DNA of 38,318 bases, taken from contig CABVRW010000002.1 in the NCBI GenBank assembly GCA_902500785.1, forward strand, positions 106,707 through 145,024, written 5' to 3'. Positions 8,316 to 16,953 of the stretch are shown here, piece by piece. How positions within the stretch are numbered: position 1 is the stretch's first letter; the number at the start of each line of letters is the position of its first letter. This DNA is from an uncultured Nitrospira sp. Its GTDB lineage: Bacteria > Nitrospirota > Nitrospiria > Nitrospirales > Nitrospiraceae. The translations under genes and the position numbers were made by a program. The notes beneath the pieces are model-generated. The model did no database searches. It was not told where the DNA came from and saw only the letters and a program-made list of their open reading frames with translations.

Positions 8316-9329
8316 TTACGAGCCATGCATATACAAGAAGAATGTGTATCCAAGGTACAGTAGTGCACTGCCGCTGAGCAACCAGGGCCGCCAATGCCCG
8401 GACCAGACCGCCTGAAGTAAACTGAATCCCATCGCGACGACGGCGAGGACCATCGTGGCCAGCGCCGTCGCCCCCAGGGTCCATTCAGTGCCGAGCAACC
8501 CGACAGAGACGGGAAACGTACCCTGAAACACCATCGCACCGGTCACGTTTCCGACCGCCAGGCGATCTTTCTTGCGGTACAGCCAGAGGAAGCTGTTCGA
8601 CATCTCAGGCAATTCAGTGGCCAGCGGAGCGATCAACAACGCGAGGATTAGCGGCGATACCTGCATTTCCGCTGAAATCGAGTTCGCCGCCGTCACAAAT
8701 AGATGGGCTCCGCCGACCAGGCCCAGCAACCCCACGAGTCCCTGCGCTCCGATCACCAGATAAGAGGGGTGGGAGGACCGGCGGGCGAACAATAGGGGTT
8801 CGAGATCACTGCTTCCTTCCACTTCCTCGTCTTCCGCTGAAAATTTCAGCTTCATGTAATAGACATACATCCCCAACAGCACCACGGCGACAGCGGCATG
8901 AAACAGCCGTGAAGGAATCATCGCGCAGATCAATGCGAGCACATAACTGATGAGGAAGAAGCTGATATCGACCCGGACTTCGCCGTAATTGAGCTTGAAG
9001 GTCGCCGTCCGTTTACCGAGCTTCGCGTAGAGCAACAACAACAGCGCGAGAATGGGCAGGACCAGCGTGCTCAGCATGAACGGCGCGCCGAGAATGGCGC
9101 CCAGACCGACTTCCATCTGCTCTCGCCCGGCCCCGAAGAAAATGGCGATGATCGGAATGGACGTCTCCGGAAGGGTCGTCCCGACCGCTGCGAAGACGCT
9201 CCCGACCGCGCCTTCAGAGATATTCAGGCGTTTTCCGAGCCACTCGATGCCGTTCGTGAAGAGATGACACCCAGTCAGGGTGATGACGACCGAGGCCACA
9301 AACAATCCTACATAGAGCAGGATCGTCAC
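8316..9329 (-). CDS. Na+/Ca2+ exchanger family (CaCA) antiporter
   Basis: Inner-membrane cation antiporter of the CaCA superfamily with about ten membrane segments. Both alpha-repeat motifs are present: GSVFAAVGTTLPETSIP in the N-terminal half and LIAPLATELPEMSNS in the C-terminal half, with their ion-binding Glu residues. These are separated by an acidic cytoplasmic loop (SAEDEEVEGSSDLEP). The start is uncertain: a GTG at 9329 begins directly at the first membrane helix, as in family members. A TTG at 9413 would add a charged 28-residue lead and overlap larC by 29 bases. I prefer 9329. Substrate could be Ca2+ or another divalent cation; the sequence alone does not decide this. Confidence 0.87.
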   Translation of the reverse strand: MTILLYVGLFVASVVITLTGCHLFTNGIEWLGKRLNISEGAVGSVFAAVGTTLPETSIPIIAIFFGAGREQMEVGLGAILGAPFMLSTLVLPILALLLLLYAKLGKRTATFKLNYGEVRVDISFFLISYVLALICAMIPSRLFHAAVAVVLLGMYVYYMKLKFSAEDEEVEGSSDLEPLLFARRSSHPSYLVIGAQGLVGLLGLVGGAHLFVTAANSISAEMQVSPLILALLIAPLATELPEMSNSFLWLYRKKDRLAVGNVTGAMVFQGTFPVSVGLLGTEWTLGATALATMVLAVVAMGFSLLQAVWSGHWRPWLLSGSALLYLGYTFFLYMHGS

Positions 9330-9384
9330 AAACGGCCCCGCAGGGAGTCTGCTCGGGACAGCGAGGCAGCGGCGGTGGCTGTCT

Positions 9385-10593
9385 TCACTTGCGCCCTTTT
9401 CCTTTTTTTCCAATTCGGGCTTGCTGCTGATACGCCGACAGGGCCTCTGCCAGAATATCTTTCACCGGACGCCCGCTCTGTTCGGCAATACGCTTACAAT
9501 CCTCATACTCGGGAGCGGCCTTGCTTTGTCCCGGCCGAAGGTCGGCCAGCTTGATCCGCACGTCCTGGCCATGAACCTGCACCGAGATAAACCGACGCGG
9601 CAACACCCGTCGCTGCACCTCGTGCGCCCGAACACCGAGCGCCGTCGTGTCGGCGAACAAGACCGCCAGCACGGCCTCCACCTTCTCCTGTGGAGCCAAT
9701 ACGGAGAGCATATTCCCGGGTCTTCCCTTTTTCATCGTGATCGGCGCCAGGGTCGCATCCACCGCTCCCGCGGCGAACACCCGATCGAACACGGTCTCGT
9801 AGACCTGCGGATTCAAGTCATCAATGTTCGTCTGCAACTCCACGATCGCTTCCATCAACCCTGCGACGGCCACTGCTTCGCCGACAAACACGCGTAACAC
9901 ATTGGGCCACTGCGCCGGATCGGCGGTTCCCGCCCCATACCCCACCCTGCCGACCCGCATCGAAGGCAAGCGACCGAATTCTGTGGCCAGGGTTCGCAGC
10001 AACGCCACCCCCGTCGGTGTGGCCAGCTCTCGTTGTGGACCCTCGGCATAGATCGGCAGCCCCACCGCCAAGGCAGCCACAGCCGGACCAGGCACGGGCA
10101 ACGATCCGTGGGCAGACGTAAGCGTGCCGGACCCCACATTGATCGCGGAGGCCGTCACACGCTGGACGCCCATGAGATGCCAACCCAAGACTCCGCCGAC
10201 CACATCCACGAACGAATCGATCACGCCGACTTCGTGAAAATGCACACGCGCCGGTTCGACTCCATGGGCCTTTCCCTCGGCAGCAGCCAACACATCGAAC
10301 ACCGCCTGGCTCCGTTCTTTGACAACCGGCGGCAGGCCGCTCTTGAGTAGAATCCGGCCGATTTGCGCCAACGTCAGCGGCGCGCGAAAGCCCTTCTCGA
10401 TCAGCACATCGACTTTTGTCGCCGTGAGCGCCCCGCGCTCGACCCGCTTCCGCGTCAGGCGAAACCCGTCGATCCGCAGCAGCGCAAGGCCGCGCACGAG
10501 ATCCTTGAAGGGCAATCCCGCATCGACCAACGCGCCCAGGATCATGTCGCCGCTGATGCCGGAGAAACAGTCGAAATGAAGATGCGTGGCCAC
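9385..10593 (-). CDS. larC: LarC, nickel-pincer cofactor nickel insertase
   Basis: CTP-dependent cyclometallase that inserts nickel into the pyridinium-3,5-bisthiocarboxylic acid mononucleotide (NPN) cofactor made by LarB and LarE. The family opening HLHFDCFSGISGDMILGAL is at the N-terminus, followed by VHFHEVGVIDSFVDVVG (His-rich), TPTGVALLRTLA and the C-terminal part with NIDDLNPQVYE and MKKGRPGNMLSVL. In Lactobacillus plantarum larC is split by a programmed frameshift; here one continuous frame covers both halves. GTG at 10593 is preferred because TAGGAG precedes it and it puts the conserved motif at the very start; an ATG at 10614 is the alternative. It heads the long minus-strand run. 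larB lies nearby; larA and larE are not in the window. Confidence 0.92.
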   Translation of the reverse strand: MATHLHFDCFSGISGDMILGALVDAGLPFKDLVRGLALLRIDGFRLTRKRVERGALTATKVDVLIEKGFRAPLTLAQIGRILLKSGLPPVVKERSQAVFDVLAAAEGKAHGVEPARVHFHEVGVIDSFVDVVGGVLGWHLMGVQRVTASAINVGSGTLTSAHGSLPVPGPAVAALAVGLPIYAEGPQRELATPTGVALLRTLATEFGRLPSMRVGRVGYGAGTADPAQWPNVLRVFVGEAVAVAGLMEAIVELQTNIDDLNPQVYETVFDRVFAAGAVDATLAPITMKKGRPGNMLSVLAPQEKVEAVLAVLFADTTALGVRAHEVQRRVLPRRFISVQVHGQDVRIKLADLRPGQSKAAPEYEDCKRIAEQSGRPVKDILAEALSAYQQQARIGKKGKGRK

Positions 10594-10763
10594 GTGACTC
10601 CTACGTTTCGTCATCGGGTGCGAGCGAGCGGCATCTTACCGGAGCCGCATCCAGACAGCAATCATTCCGCTCGTTCGTTGACAGCCTTGCAACGCTGTGT
10701 TATCCCCAATGAAGAGACGCATCCGACCAGTTCACCGGCCTGCTCCGTGCGACACCGATACCC

Positions 10764-11368: not shown

Positions 11369-12142
11369 TCAGCCTATCTGCGCGTCACACGACGCATCGC
11401 CCACCATGTTGATCCGATGCGCCAGGCAACCGGCCCCAAAGCCGTTGTCGATGTTCATCACTCCGACCCCGGCCGCGCAGGAATTCAGCATGGTCAACAA
11501 TGCGGCCAACCCGCCGAAGTGCGCGCCATATCCGCGGCTGGTCGGCACCGCAATCACCGGTTGCCGCACCAGTCCACCGACGACGCTCGGAAGCACGCCA
11601 TCCATCCCGGCCACCACGATGAGCGCGCGGGATCCATGCAATCGCTCCTGTTGGCCGAGCAGGCGATGGAGTCCGGCCACCCCCACATCGTACAAGGTGT
11701 CGGTCCGGCTGCCCATGATATCGGCCGTCACCCGCGCCTCCTCCGCCACGGGAATGTCGGCAGTGCCGGCGGTGACGATCAACACGGATCCCCGGCGCAC
11801 CAGTTTGGGCGGCGCAATGGCCACGACACGCGCCGCCTCATGATAGACCGCTCGCTTGCTGACCCGCAGCAGTGCGCGCGCGACCGACGGCTCCACTCGC
11901 GTGGCCAGCAGGGAGTTATTCTTCCGCAATAGGGTCTTGGCAATGGTCACCACCTGAGGCACGGTCTTTCCTTCGCAAAAGATCACTTCCGGAAATCCCT
12001 GTCGAAGCGCCCGATGATGATCGAGCGAGGCAAAACCAAGATTTTCATAGGGCAGCGTTCGCAACTGGTGGAGCGCGTCCGGCACGGCGATAGCGCCCCG
12101 CTGAACCTTGGTGAGCAACACCTGCAGCTGGTCCTGATTCAT
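11369..12142 (-). CDS. larB: LarB, pyridinium-3,5-biscarboxylic acid mononucleotide synthase
   Basis: Carboxylates and hydrolyses nicotinic acid adenine dinucleotide, the first step of nickel-pincer cofactor synthesis. The 257-residue protein carries a helical N-terminal part (VQRGAIAVPDALHQLRTLPYENLGFASLDHHR) typical of LarB. A PurE/AIR-carboxylase-like C-terminal domain follows with VTAGTADIPVAEEA, AGMDGVLPSVVGGLV and the end motif NIDNGFGAGCLAHRIN. The ATG at 12142 overlaps the gpsA stop (ATGA), so translation is coupled to gpsA; the longer frame reading upstream is inside gpsA and not used. It is separated from larC by the opposite-strand gene at 10764-11336. Confidence 0.92.
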   Translation of the reverse strand: MNQDQLQVLLTKVQRGAIAVPDALHQLRTLPYENLGFASLDHHRALRQGFPEVIFCEGKTVPQVVTIAKTLLRKNNSLLATRVEPSVARALLRVSKRAVYHEAARVVAIAPPKLVRRGSVLIVTAGTADIPVAEEARVTADIMGSRTDTLYDVGVAGLHRLLGQQERLHGSRALIVVAGMDGVLPSVVGGLVRQPVIAVPTSRGYGAHFGGLAALLTMLNSCAAGVGVMNIDNGFGAGCLAHRINMVGDASCDAQIG

Positions 12143-13149
12143 GACGGGCTTTTCTCCCCCTTGGCTTCTCGCTCCATCAGATCGCCGACCGCCTGGCGGC
12201 AGGACTTGTCGGCAAAGAGCACCGCGTTGACTTCCTGCACAATCGGCATATCCACGCCACATCGCATCGCGAGACCCAGCGCTGCTTTTGCCGTGCGCAC
12301 GCCTTCCGCCACCGCCTGCATGCTCGCGAGAATGTCCTGCAGACGTTCCCCCTTGCCTAGCCGCACTCCCACGGAGTGATTGCGGCTCAAGGGCCCGGTA
12401 CAGGTCAAGATGAGATCCCCGACACCGGACAAACCGTAAAAGGTTCGCGGATCGGCGCCCATCGCCACCCCCAGCCGAATCATTTCGGCCAACCCGCGGG
12501 TAATGAGGGCGGCGCGAGCGTTATGGCCGAGGTCCAATCCATCGACGACACCGGCAGCCAAAGCCATCACGTTTTTTAAGGCCCCGCCGAGCTGCACCCC
12601 GATCAGATCATCATCCGCATACACCCGAAAGCTCGGCGTCATGAACAGTGCCTGGATGGTCTTGACGACTCCGGCATCCTGCCCGGCCAGACAGAGCGCC
12701 GTTGGTTTCCCGCGACTGACCTCACTGGCAAAACTCGGCCCCGACAAAACCAGCCACGAGCCGTGCATAGGGGCAGGCAGCACATTCTGCATGACCTGCG
12801 TCATGAGCGCCAACGTGTCCTCTTCGATTCCCTTGGTGGCGCTGACCAAGGGGATGGGCTGCGGCAGCAATGCGCCGATCTGGCTCAGCACCGGCCTCGC
12901 CACATGCGACGGCACCGCGAAGATCAGGCAGTCGGCGCCCGTCACGGCATCGGATAACACATTCGTTGCGGATAAGGTCGCCGGAAGCTGAATGCCCGGC
13001 AAATACAGGGCATTCTCGCGTCGAACGTCGATCGCCTGAACGACCTCCGGCTCATGGGCCCAGAGACGGACGGGAATCTGTTTCTCTGCCAGATGCCGGG
13101 CTAATGCCGTCCCCCAGGCCCCGGCTCCGATAACCGCCACATGGTGCAT
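12139..13149 (-). CDS. gpsA: Glycerol-3-phosphate dehydrogenase [NAD(P)+] GpsA
   Basis: Reduces dihydroxyacetone phosphate to sn-glycerol-3-phosphate for phospholipid synthesis. The protein (336 residues from the ATG at 13149) has the nucleotide-binding GAGAWGTALA (8-17), SATKGIEEDT with the first conserved Lys (K106), SGPSFASEV, the catalytic GGALKNVMALAAG (K192), and the C-terminal GVGDLILTCTGPLSRN and RNHSVGVRLGKG. Other in-frame starts at 13161 (ATG) and 13173 (GTG) exist; 13149 fits the family N-terminus best, and none has a clear ribosome-binding site. A consensus-like promoter at 13238-13267 drives it, giving a leader of roughly 80 bases. larB follows with an ATGA overlap. Confidence 0.94.
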   Translation of the reverse strand: MHHVAVIGAGAWGTALARHLAEKQIPVRLWAHEPEVVQAIDVRRENALYLPGIQLPATLSATNVLSDAVTGADCLIFAVPSHVARPVLSQIGALLPQPIPLVSATKGIEEDTLALMTQVMQNVLPAPMHGSWLVLSGPSFASEVSRGKPTALCLAGQDAGVVKTIQALFMTPSFRVYADDDLIGVQLGGALKNVMALAAGVVDGLDLGHNARAALITRGLAEMIRLGVAMGADPRTFYGLSGVGDLILTCTGPLSRNHSVGVRLGKGERLQDILASMQAVAEGVRTAKAALGLAMRCGVDMPIVQEVNAVLFADKSCRQAVGDLMEREAKGEKSPS

Positions 13150-13237
13150 GGATAATGGCATCACACCCGCCACAACATCATGACATGGGAAAACAATTCC
13201 GCAGCTGGAATGAATGGCGCAGGCTTCATCGACGCGG

Positions 13238-13377: not shown

Positions 13378-13734
13378 ATGAAACCCTGTCCAGTTTGTGG
13401 GCGTGCCCTGCCAGAAATCAACCGCTATTGCACCCACTGCGGAGCGGGCGTCGAGCCCGATACCATTCGGAGCGCCATTCCGACACCTCCCGGGTCGGCA
13501 AAGGAGCAGCTGAACCTGAATATCTTGTACGGCATGGTGATGGTGCTGATGGTCTCCCTGCTGATGCCGCCATGGGAATCGCCTCCCTCGCAACCGCCTG
13601 TCTTTCTTGGGTTTCATTTTATCCTCTCTCCTCCGCAACCGGATGCCATCATCAGCCGGCTGCTACTCACGATCGAGCTCACCACCACCGCCATTGCGGG
13701 CCTCTATCTTTCGTTTCTGTTTCGATCTCGGTAA
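13378..13734 (+). CDS. Small zinc-ribbon membrane protein
   Basis: The 118-residue product begins with a double CxxC zinc ribbon (CPVCG at 4-8 and CTHCG at 18-22), followed by a short linker and two hydrophobic segments (about 48-62 and 95-114), so it should be an inner-membrane protein with a cytosolic zinc finger. The pattern matches the general 'zinc ribbon plus transmembrane' class, whose members have no common function. The gene converges on the arginine dihydrolase gene with a 20-base gap. Start ATG at 13378; an AGGCTGCGGC-rich upstream gives only weak ribosome-binding potential. Function unknown. Confidence 0.75.
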   Translation: MKPCPVCGRALPEINRYCTHCGAGVEPDTIRSAIPTPPGSAKEQLNLNILYGMVMVLMVSLLMPPWESPPSQPPVFLGFHFILSPPQPDAIISRLLLTIELTTTAIAGLYLSFLFRSR

Positions 13735-13754: not shown

Positions 13755-14555
13755 TCAGTTGAGGGCGAGCGTCAGGCATTTGGCTGCGCCGCCCGACTTC
13801 ATAAATTCGTCCAACTGAACGGGATGGGTGTGATAGCCGCGATCTTCAAGCAACTTGGTCGTGAGCGGACAATCAGCGGGAATCACGACTTGTTTGCCGA
13901 TACACACCGCGTTACAGGCAAATCGTACCCCTTCCTCTTCCGGCACTGCGAGCCGCCGATCCTCCGGAATCCGTTGGGCGATCGCCGCCTGGCCGTAGGA
14001 GTCGAACGCCGAGGGCAGGTAGAGCAAGTCACCGCCGCTGAGCGGACAAAAACAGGTATCCAGGTGATAGAACCGGCTGTCGATCAATTCGAGCGGAATG
14101 ATTTCTCGCTGAAAGATTTCGCTCAGCCTTGGAAACGCCCGGATGTCCGACCGCTGGTGGTATCCGCCGAACCAGGTATCCGCAAATCCTAACAGGTCAC
14201 CGGCTCCCTCGAAATAGAGCGACTGGTCGAGCGTCAACACCTCATACCCCTGCTCACGGAACCATCGTTCGAAGTGTGCTTCCTCTCGTTGTCGCTCCGG
14301 GTATCGGAACCGGCTCACCAACGCTCGACGACCGACGACCAGCCCCGCATTGGCCGTAAAGACCAAGTCGGGAAGGCCCTGAACGGGCTGCATCCGCTCA
14401 ATTCCTGCACCGACCTCCTCTTCCAACACCTTCATCAACGTCTGCCATTGTCCGACTGCACGCGCCGAGTCTACGCCGTTCGCCCGCCGCATCCAGGGAT
14501 TGATCTCGTAATCGATTTGAAAATAGTCGGGAGGACACACCAGAAACCGGCTCAT
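13755..14555 (-). CDS. argZ: ArgZ-type arginine dihydrolase (amidinotransferase fold)
   Basis: Predicted to hydrolyse arginine to ornithine, CO2 and two NH3. From the ATG at 14555 it has 266 residues and corresponds to the N-terminal half of the cyanobacterial fusion enzyme ArgZ/AgrE. Visible family residues: INPWM (18-22), DLVFTANAGLV (63-73; Asn69 matches the Asn71 that I recall as essential for the two-step hydrolysis in Synechocystis ArgZ), FEGAGD (115-120), RFYHLDTCFCPLSGG with His164, FACNAV, and the catalytic Cys260 in KSGGAAKCLTL. The start overlaps the stop of the ornithine cyclodeaminase gene (ATGA), implying coupled translation. Alternative: dimethylargininase or another member of the superfamily, less likely given the neighbour and the Asn. 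Confidence 0.87.
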   Translation of the reverse strand: MSRFLVCPPDYFQIDYEINPWMRRANGVDSARAVGQWQTLMKVLEEEVGAGIERMQPVQGLPDLVFTANAGLVVGRRALVSRFRYPERQREEAHFERWFREQGYEVLTLDQSLYFEGAGDLLGFADTWFGGYHQRSDIRAFPRLSEIFQREIIPLELIDSRFYHLDTCFCPLSGGDLLYLPSAFDSYGQAAIAQRIPEDRRLAVPEEEGVRFACNAVCIGKQVVIPADCPLTTKLLEDRGYHTHPVQLDEFMKSGGAAKCLTLALN

Positions 14556-15796
14556 GGGCGCCACCCGAGTTCACGCGCCAGTTCTTTGAGAAACGAGGCG
14601 GCATCCATCACCAGGCCGACGGCTTGGAAACTGCCACGATCAGCCAATTTCGTGGGCACGGCCGGATTCACATCGACGCACACCGTGGGAACGGTCGCCG
14701 GCAATAGATTGCCGGTGGCGATTGCGTGGAGCGTGGACGCAACCAACAGGGCCAGTCCGACTCCGGGAATTTCCGCGCGCATGGCCTGTTGCGCCATCAT
14801 GGAGTCCGTCAACACCCCAGGCAACGGACCATCGTCTCGGATGGTGCCCGCCATCACCATCTTCACCTCCCGCCGCACACAAGCCGCCATGATGCCGTCG
14901 GTGATCACTCCGGACCGCACGGCCTCTTGGATGCTGCCGATGGCCCGAATCCGATTGATGGTACGCAGGTGATGCTCATGCCCATGTGGCACTGAACGGC
15001 CGGCCGTCAACCCATACCCGAGCGACGTGCCGTAGAGCCCAGCCTCCATATCGTGCGCCGCCAAGGCATTGCCGCAGAACAGGAGCTGAATGTACCCCGT
15101 CTCGATCAACCAAGTCAGGGCCTCCCTTCCGCCCGCATGCACGATCGCCGGCCCGCCCGCCAACAGCACCTTGCCATCGGCGCGGCCCTGCCGGTGCCAC
15201 TCGCGCAACTTCTGCATCCGCCGAGCGATGTCGGCGATGACGGGATGGTGCGGCCGCTCCGATGACACCACGGATTCCATGAATCCGAACACGTCACGCT
15301 CGGTGGGACGCGCGAGGGGGGTCACCCTGATGCCCTCTCGCCCGATCACGATCAGATCCCCGGTGGTGACTGTTCCCATAGGAATGGTCCTGGCGCGGGC
15401 TTTGGCCGAATCGACACAGATGCCGAGATCCATTTCCATGCCCGCCACCTCCACCCACTCACCATCCAGACGAATCTGCGTCGGCAAATGTGTTGTCGCA
15501 TAGAACTGTTCGGGAAAGACTCCCGCCGCCGGAGCCGGCTCGAACCGGCAATCCGCTTCACGCTCGACGGCGGCGCCGTGGGGTTGGATGGCCTGGAGAA
15601 TCTCGGCCAACAGGCGACCGGACGGTGCTCGCACGACAATCCGCGCCTGAGACGTCGCCTCTCTCGTCGTCCCGATCGCGACGTCCTGCAAGTCAAAGGT
15701 ACCGCCCATCATCAGAATCGTGTCCAGGACCTTCGCCAGGATCAACGAATCGATAATGTGGCCCTGCAGGAAGACTGTTTCTTGCGATGCGGTCAT
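14552..15796 (-). CDS. Archaeal-type ornithine cyclodeaminase (TIGR00300 / LOR-SDH domain)
   Basis: Predicted to convert ornithine to proline with release of NH3. The 414-residue protein is the family found in methanogens and as the C-terminal half of cyanobacterial AgrE/ArgZ, unrelated to the mu-crystallin-type cyclodeaminase. Features: N-terminal region opening GHIIDSLILAKVLDTILMMGG; central VLLAGGPAIVHAGGREAL and LLFCGNALAAHDMEAGLYGT (nucleotide-binding part); GRSVPHGHEHHLRTIN; C-terminal VCVDVNPAVPTKLADRGS. ATG at 15796 places the conserved motif near residue 12; the frame stays open upstream but with unconserved residues. It lies 105 bases after truD and overlaps the arginine dihydrolase gene, so both steps are made from one mRNA. 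Confidence 0.87.
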   Translation of the reverse strand: MTASQETVFLQGHIIDSLILAKVLDTILMMGGTFDLQDVAIGTTREATSQARIVVRAPSGRLLAEILQAIQPHGAAVEREADCRFEPAPAAGVFPEQFYATTHLPTQIRLDGEWVEVAGMEMDLGICVDSAKARARTIPMGTVTTGDLIVIGREGIRVTPLARPTERDVFGFMESVVSSERPHHPVIADIARRMQKLREWHRQGRADGKVLLAGGPAIVHAGGREALTWLIETGYIQLLFCGNALAAHDMEAGLYGTSLGYGLTAGRSVPHGHEHHLRTINRIRAIGSIQEAVRSGVITDGIMAACVRREVKMVMAGTIRDDGPLPGVLTDSMMAQQAMRAEIPGVGLALLVASTLHAIATGNLLPATVPTVCVDVNPAVPTKLADRGSFQAVGLVMDAASFLKELARELGWRP

Positions 15797-15900
15797 GACC
15801 GGCCCACATGACTCGTGCCGACACCGAAGCGGATGCCTCGTGAGGGAGGAACCGTACTCCCTAAATTCTACCATCTATCGGGCAAAATGACCTGTGCGGG

Positions 15901-16953
15901 CTAGTCGTTTTTCTTCACAACTTCCCGCAGCACACTCGTCGCGTAGGAACCGGGAGGGAGCCAGAACGACAGCGTCAAGACAGCACCGTCCAGCGACCAG
16001 GACAGATCATTGAGACGAACCCGGAGCGCTCGTCGTTCGCCGCGGAATCCGCATTCGGCGCCGGCTTTCGACAAGAGTTCGGGAGTCGTTCCCAGCTCTG
16101 CCACCACGGCCCGTTCTATTTCTCCTGGATCGCCGGTCGCCCAGGGCGCGCGGGACCCGAAGAGCGGTCCCGTAGGGCTGATCTCGAACCGATCGGCTCG
16201 CGGCTGCTCGACCTCCGGCTGCTCCACCGGAAAGCAGGCCCCGTTCTCCGACTTCATCGCCCAGTCGCCCAGAAACACCCGATCGATACTTTCGATCCGT
16301 TTGGCGACGATGCGGTTGAACACATGGGACTGATACGCATTCATGAACCAGATGCGCTTATTGCGAGGCATCTTGTTCCGACGCGCAGCGTCCTGCAGCA
16401 ACTCGGCGCCCAATTGGAAATTCGTCCCCGATCGCCCTTGCCGTTGGGGGCCAAAATAGTTGGGCACACCCCGGCGCACCAATTCATCGAACAGCCGCTG
16501 CAGCGACTCTTCGCTGCCTTCCCGAACGTCTCGAATCACCAAGCGGAACTGATTGCCCGCATGATGCCCCTTGCGCAGCCGGTTGCGATGGCGCCCCAGG
16601 ACCTCCAGCGTGAGCAAGCGCTCGTCGAGGGGTAATGCCGCGACTGTTTCCGCCTTCACTCCGTGCAATGAAAGCATCTGTGTCGTCACGGCCTGCGCAT
16701 CCTTCAGACCGGCCACTCCGATGGTTTGGGCTTTCACATGGAGCTGGGATGCGAGTCGCAATACGAGATCTGGTGTGGATAGGCCCCGCTTTTTGACTCG
16801 AATATAGAGATGCTCACCGTCCCCGCAGGGCAGATAGAGGGGGCGCTCATCCACACAAAAATCATCGGGAGTACTGCGAATTCGGCCACCAAGAGCGGGC
16901 ACTGCAGCGGTGAGATAGGGGACCGTGTCATCGAGCCAGGACGGAATCGGCAT
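15901..16953 (-). CDS. truD: tRNA pseudouridine(13) synthase TruD
   Basis: Isomerises uridine 13 in the D-arm of tRNA-Glu-type substrates. The 350-residue protein has the TruD nucleophile motif GVAGLKDAQAVTTQ with Asp85 (Asp80 in E. coli), the substrate-entry motif NYFGPQRQGRSGTNFQLG, and RIWFMNAYQSHVFNRIV; the TRUD insertion domain lies roughly between residues 165 and 310. Start ATG at 16953 is preceded by AAGGAA five bases upstream. It is the first gene before the ornithine cyclodeaminase and arginine dihydrolase genes. A TATAAC -10-like box at 17025-17020 could serve it. Confidence 0.93.
   Translation of the reverse strand: MPIPSWLDDTVPYLTAAVPALGGRIRSTPDDFCVDERPLYLPCGDGEHLYIRVKKRGLSTPDLVLRLASQLHVKAQTIGVAGLKDAQAVTTQMLSLHGVKAETVAALPLDERLLTLEVLGRHRNRLRKGHHAGNQFRLVIRDVREGSEESLQRLFDELVRRGVPNYFGPQRQGRSGTNFQLGAELLQDAARRNKMPRNKRIWFMNAYQSHVFNRIVAKRIESIDRVFLGDWAMKSENGACFPVEQPEVEQPRADRFEISPTGPLFGSRAPWATGDPGEIERAVVAELGTTPELLSKAGAECGFRGERRALRVRLNDLSWSLDGAVLTLSFWLPPGSYATSVLREVVKKND

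Follow-up and report, generated by a model that had tools for sequence, protein, structure and literature searches.

Do two overlapping genes of a Nitrospira genome encode, as separate proteins, the arginine-to-proline enzyme that cyanobacteria produce as a single fused polypeptide (ArgZ/AgrE), and which cofactor would its second half use? We examined this question in the window, meaning the whole 38,318-nucleotide stretch of DNA analysed, which belongs to a 3.9 Mb genome whose nearest relatives are Nitrospira spp. Judging from gene content and homology, we regard it as likely that the pair is a two-protein ArgZ/AgrE that would convert arginine into proline, with a cyclodeaminase most likely using the nickel-pincer nucleotide (NPN). 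The link to this nickel cofactor, absent from an earlier note on the same DNA, is the most interesting feature of the locus.

A split ArgZ/AgrE gene pair

Both genes are intact minus-strand ORFs that neighbour and overlap each other in the window. The first (14552..15796) encodes a complete 414-aa ornithine cyclodeaminase of the TIGR00300 or 'LOR-SDH' type with an N-terminal Saccharop_dh_N domain; another in-frame ATG is present upstream at 15874, and homologues align from 15796. The second (13755..14555) encodes a 266-aa ArgZ-type arginine dihydrolase, and the stop of the first gene and the start of the second share an ATGA (14552..14555) at which translation of the two may be coupled. In profile searches, the cyclodeaminase scored 457.2 bits against TIGR00300 over residues 7–410, exceeding the curated cut-off of 410.8, while the pair also gave a PF21570 match (E 5e-95) and Arg_dihydro was the best match of the 266-aa protein (E 1e-88). 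The earlier note had read the genes as separated, order-reversed halves of ArgZ/AgrE joined by an ATGA overlap, and had assigned the partner of the dihydrolase to TIGR00300; with intact ORFs, and with family matches far beyond chance, both readings hold.

The 414-aa protein contains the N-terminal LOR/SDH domain as well as the two ArgZ-like domains of the C-terminal part, and comparison of its structural model with known structures showed 38–44% identity and Z scores of 33–39 to the C-terminal parts of ArgZ/AgrE and to M. maripaludis 3c2q. Both domains of AgrE (Anabaena alr4995) and ArgZ (Synechocystis sll1336) have full-length homologues in the pair, with the active-site residues of the dihydrolase kept. 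Unlike AgrE/ArgZ, however, Nitrospira has two proteins, with the cyclodeaminase gene first, the ATGA overlap in place of a single polypeptide, and lar genes nearby; bifunctional ArgZ (NF052231) has both domains in one polypeptide, whereas here a stop codon divides them between two ORFs. The stand-alone archaeal TIGR00300 proteins (M. maripaludis 3c2q, MJ1480) are likewise separate and have the same domains, 3c2q being 44–45% identical to the window protein; the Nitrospira gene is coupled to an ArgZ-type gene.

Surveying genome collections for split and fused forms, as the earlier note had proposed, we found the dihydrolase gene directly downstream of the cyclodeaminase gene in 73 of 110 loci, always with the cyclodeaminase first, and no fusion of the two among the 110. 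Hosts of this order include Nitrospirota, Planctomycetota and Armatimonadota. An ATGA or GTGA overlap is usual in the Nitrospira family, and gene order and overlap are retained across Nitrospira relatives, the cyclodeaminase of Ca. N. defluvii being 91% identical to the window protein; elsewhere, the spacing between the genes ranges from a few bases to about 250. Since the split order recurs so widely, it is no oddity of one Nitrospira genome but a second, widely distributed arrangement besides the fusion of cyanobacteria. Three long actinobacterial ORFs (G320, G323 and G569) were considered as ArgZ fusions and rejected: G323 and G569 owe their extra length to sequence unlike ArgZ, the surroundings of the G320 gene gave no ArgZ match, and at G569 a separate ArgZ-like gene begins downstream. 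At three cyclodeaminase loci without ArgZ (L035, L050 and L076), the neighbours include no recognised arginine enzyme.

An Rfam scan of the whole window gave no match. Elsewhere in the window, positions 2002–2796 encode a 2-oxoglutarate/Fe(II)-type oxygenase whose best Pfam match is the halogenase HalD (E 2e-9).

Substrate of the dihydrolase and fate of proline

Alignment of the 266-aa protein to the crystallised ArgZ/AgrE chains places Asn69 on the Asn (equivalent to ArgZ Asn71) at which the PDB 6juz construct differs, and Cys260 on the Cys (ArgZ Cys264) at which 6jv1 differs, while His164 is the invariant His of HLDTCFCP, and Glu116 and Asp120 are kept as well. The Asn/His/Cys set named in the earlier note is therefore correct as to its residues; taken alone, it would suit a dimethylargininase too, as ddaH proteins share all three. 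The protein scored 297.1 bits against the NCBIfam Arg_dihydro model (NF052232), below its cut-off of 450, and 240.9 bits against the next-best model, the mycobacterial-type dimethylargininase (NF045659), below its cut-off of 300. It is no certain member of NF052232, and is grouped with that family only as an enzyme predicted to work like one. Because it falls below both curated cut-offs, the substrate assignment rests on residues, gene context and tree, and the arginine-to-proline route put forward earlier, although still the best reading, is weaker than originally stated.

According to this reading, the 266-aa enzyme would use Cys260 as its nucleophile to hydrolyse arginine, releasing ornithine, CO2 and two NH3, after which the 414-aa enzyme would deaminate and cyclise ornithine to proline and NH3; the two enzymes may also form a physical complex. 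Proline could then be oxidised to glutamate by PutA, encoded elsewhere in the genome, where a proline dehydrogenase domain is found in a 1012-aa, PutA-sized ORF outside the window. The presence of PutA is a further likeness to the Anabaena pathway, in which it carries proline on to glutamate (PMC8262935). In the earlier note, the ammonia set free was proposed as a possible internal source for a nitrifying lineage.

We consider it very improbable that the first enzyme is instead a dimethylargininase or a citrulline-forming deiminase, leaving the cyclodeaminase to obtain ornithine from another source. Such an activity would be in line with the 241 bits to the dimethylargininase model, the sub-threshold Arg_dihydro score and the common Asn/His/Cys set, and the stand-alone actinobacterial ddaH proteins (NF045659; Rv2323c type) belong to the same fold family. 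Nevertheless, the Nitrospira protein is 46–47% identical to cyanobacterial ArgZ/AgrE as against 34–43% to ddaH-type proteins, and it carries the ArgZ-type motifs FEGAGD (the FEGxGD motif of the ArgZ type), HLDTCFCPL and KCLTL, whereas ddaH has NEGxGD and KCC in place of FEGAGD and KCL; these motifs, together with the higher identity, favour a dihydrolase. The ddaH sequences also form a clade of their own with 100% support, although the same tree gives no clear order to the deeper splits between Nitrospirota proteins, ddaH and fused ArgZ, and in many genomes the dihydrolase gene overlaps that of an ornithine-consuming enzyme. Finally, the ddaH label is itself doubtful, since Rv2323c, annotated as ddaH, is required for growth of M. 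tuberculosis on arginine (PMC4569260). In M. ulcerans, the Rv2323c-type ddaH gene (L122) overlaps rocD, which encodes an ornithine-consuming enzyme; this overlap hints that the Rv2323c-type group may also yield ornithine rather than citrulline.

Improbable as well, if somewhat less so, is a chiefly biosynthetic pair that would make proline from ornithine, the dihydrolase setting the ornithine supply rather than degrading arginine. Proline is indeed the product of the pair, and archaeal homologues of the cyclodeaminase have been discussed as a route to proline. However, the genome has two full-length proC paralogues (G000:C8:55282 and C42:28715, both outside the window), which rules out the cyclodeaminase as a substitute for ProC in proline synthesis, and nearly every genome of the order encodes ProC, with or without the cyclodeaminase. 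PutA, by comparison, tends to vanish together with the cyclodeaminase: among genomes of the sampled part of the order in which both genes were scored, it is missing from four of six without the cyclodeaminase and from one of 45 with it (Fisher 3e-4, ignoring phylogeny). This pattern speaks for a breakdown of arginine to glutamate like that of Anabaena rather than for proline synthesis.

The lar genes and the cofactor of the cyclodeaminase

Two genes of NPN biosynthesis lie downstream of the pair on the same strand. LarB (11369..12142), the pyridinium carboxylase/hydrolase of the pathway, scored 285 bits against NF033503 (cut-off 175), and LarC (9385..10614), the nickel insertase, comprises LarC1 and LarC2 parts, with 187 bits against TIGR00299 (cut-off 90) and 139 bits against NF052512 (cut-off 50); with LarE encoded elsewhere, the NPN pathway of the genome is complete. 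In the Nitrospira family, the order is truD, cyclodeaminase, dihydrolase, gpsA, larB, larC and a Na/Ca exchanger, and in 53 of 56 genomes LarB is encoded 3–6 kb from the cyclodeaminase, thus within 10 kb. The conserved neighbours truD (15901..16953, minus strand, upstream of the cyclodeaminase) and gpsA (glycerol-3-phosphate dehydrogenase; 12139..13173, minus strand, overlapping larB) are probably outside the system. A zinc-ribbon ORF on the opposite strand (13378..13734, plus) separates the pair from gpsA-larB, making a single operon unlikely, and another plus-strand ORF sits before larC. Outside the Nitrospira family, no lar genes were seen beside the cyclodeaminase in the examined flanks of neighbouring families and other phyla. 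The Na/Ca-exchanger-type gene that follows larC (8316–9413 in the window) has a relative adjoining a planctomycete cyclodeaminase (L035:8722-9930), possibly by coincidence.

NCBIfam release 20 names TIGR00300 'ornithine cyclodeaminase, nickel-pincer nucleotide-dependent', and our literature search found no published demonstration of NPN in the family. According to a December 2024 study, larB, larE and larC occur in the absence of larA in about 15% of genomes; many cyanobacteria likewise carry larBCE and lack larA, NPN likely being used there in an unidentified protein of a fold distinct from LarA (PMC11796402). As the known organisms with ArgZ/AgrE are cyanobacteria, this statement fits TIGR00300 as an NPN client, which would share its cofactor and its LarB/E/C supply with the lactate racemases of the LarA family. 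We saw no sequence-family match between the cyclodeaminase and LarA, and LarA was absent among the 50 structural matches listed for the cyclodeaminase model.

We then compared the distributions of these genes, in counts that ignore phylogeny. Among 246 Nitrospirota genomes, LarB is present in 71 of 71 with the cyclodeaminase, and the cyclodeaminase in none of the 53 that lack LarB (Fisher 9e-10), although these cyclodeaminase genomes all belong to one class and the counts are therefore not independent. The Actinomycetota are the better test: across 296 genomes, LarB occurs in 43 of 47 with the cyclodeaminase compared to 142 of 249 without it (p 1.5e-6), while the cyclodeaminase is not associated with LarA (p 0.18). 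LarB was also above cut-off in 46 of 50 cyclodeaminase genomes from a mixed set of further phyla; a Planctomycetota-rich set was uninformative for the cyclodeaminase versus LarA, LarA being common there. In a survey of LarB, LarA and TIGR00300, 116 Nitrospirota genomes have LarB but neither of the other two, showing that LarB is kept for other uses and suggesting yet another NPN-using protein.

Against a role for nickel, the pair could follow the same arginine-to-proline pathway with a plain NAD(H)-dependent cyclodeaminase, the lar genes serving LarA or another client and lying close by through inherited synteny. We judge this unlikely. PDB 6lrg is described as AgrE in complex with ornithine and NAD+, and the closest other fold of the cyclodeaminase domain is the NAD-binding deoxyhypusine-synthase fold (Z 17–18). 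The genome itself encodes a LarA homologue (G000:C8:22616-23191, outside the window), LarB is frequent in genomes without the cyclodeaminase, and the lar linkage is confined to a single family, where gpsA, the zinc-ribbon ORF and the plus-strand ORF before larC interrupt it. Conversely, cyclodeaminase genomes are rarely without LarB while LarA shows no association with the cyclodeaminase, LarB occurs without LarA in 57 of the 71 cyclodeaminase-bearing Nitrospirota, and the curated NCBIfam description names NPN dependence. NAD+ from an expression host lacking lar genes could, moreover, occupy the site of NPN, which is derived from nicotinic acid adenine dinucleotide. Our preferred reading thus remains that the cyclodeaminase most likely uses NPN, made by LarB, LarE and LarC, instead of the NAD+ seen in the crystal of its homologue; its nickel dependence is probable and no firmer, because the counts take no account of phylogeny and the crystal structure has NAD+ bound.

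Homologues of LarA were found in 11 of the 15 genomes sampled from the genus, but most other members of the family with LarB and the cyclodeaminase lack them. Outside the window, a 355-aa open frame (G000:C38:9995-10219) has weak similarity to the Rossmann domain of the cyclodeaminase, with similar matches in many Nitrospirota; it is probably deoxyhypusine-synthase-like.

Implications for NPN clients and nitrite oxidisers

On balance, we favour the view that the TIGR00300 cyclodeaminase, and with it the C-terminal half of cyanobacterial ArgZ/AgrE, is the sought NPN client outside the LarA family, and that the split module of Nitrospira is linked to larB and larC. What is new here is modest, namely the split form of an already known enzyme pair and genomic support for a cofactor assignment that answers a recently raised question. 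That answer is implied by the name under which TIGR00300 is curated, and independent genomic support for it now comes from the Nitrospira locus, with larB and larC beside the gene throughout the family and LarB in nearly every cyclodeaminase genome. If TIGR00300 is an NPN client, at least one further client would still be to find, given the 116 Nitrospirota genomes that have LarB but neither LarA nor the cyclodeaminase. Since the two halves are naturally separate in Nitrospira, NPN loading and assay of the cyclodeaminase by itself need no cutting of a fused enzyme. If the proposal is true, the use of arginine by these nitrite oxidisers would depend on nickel.
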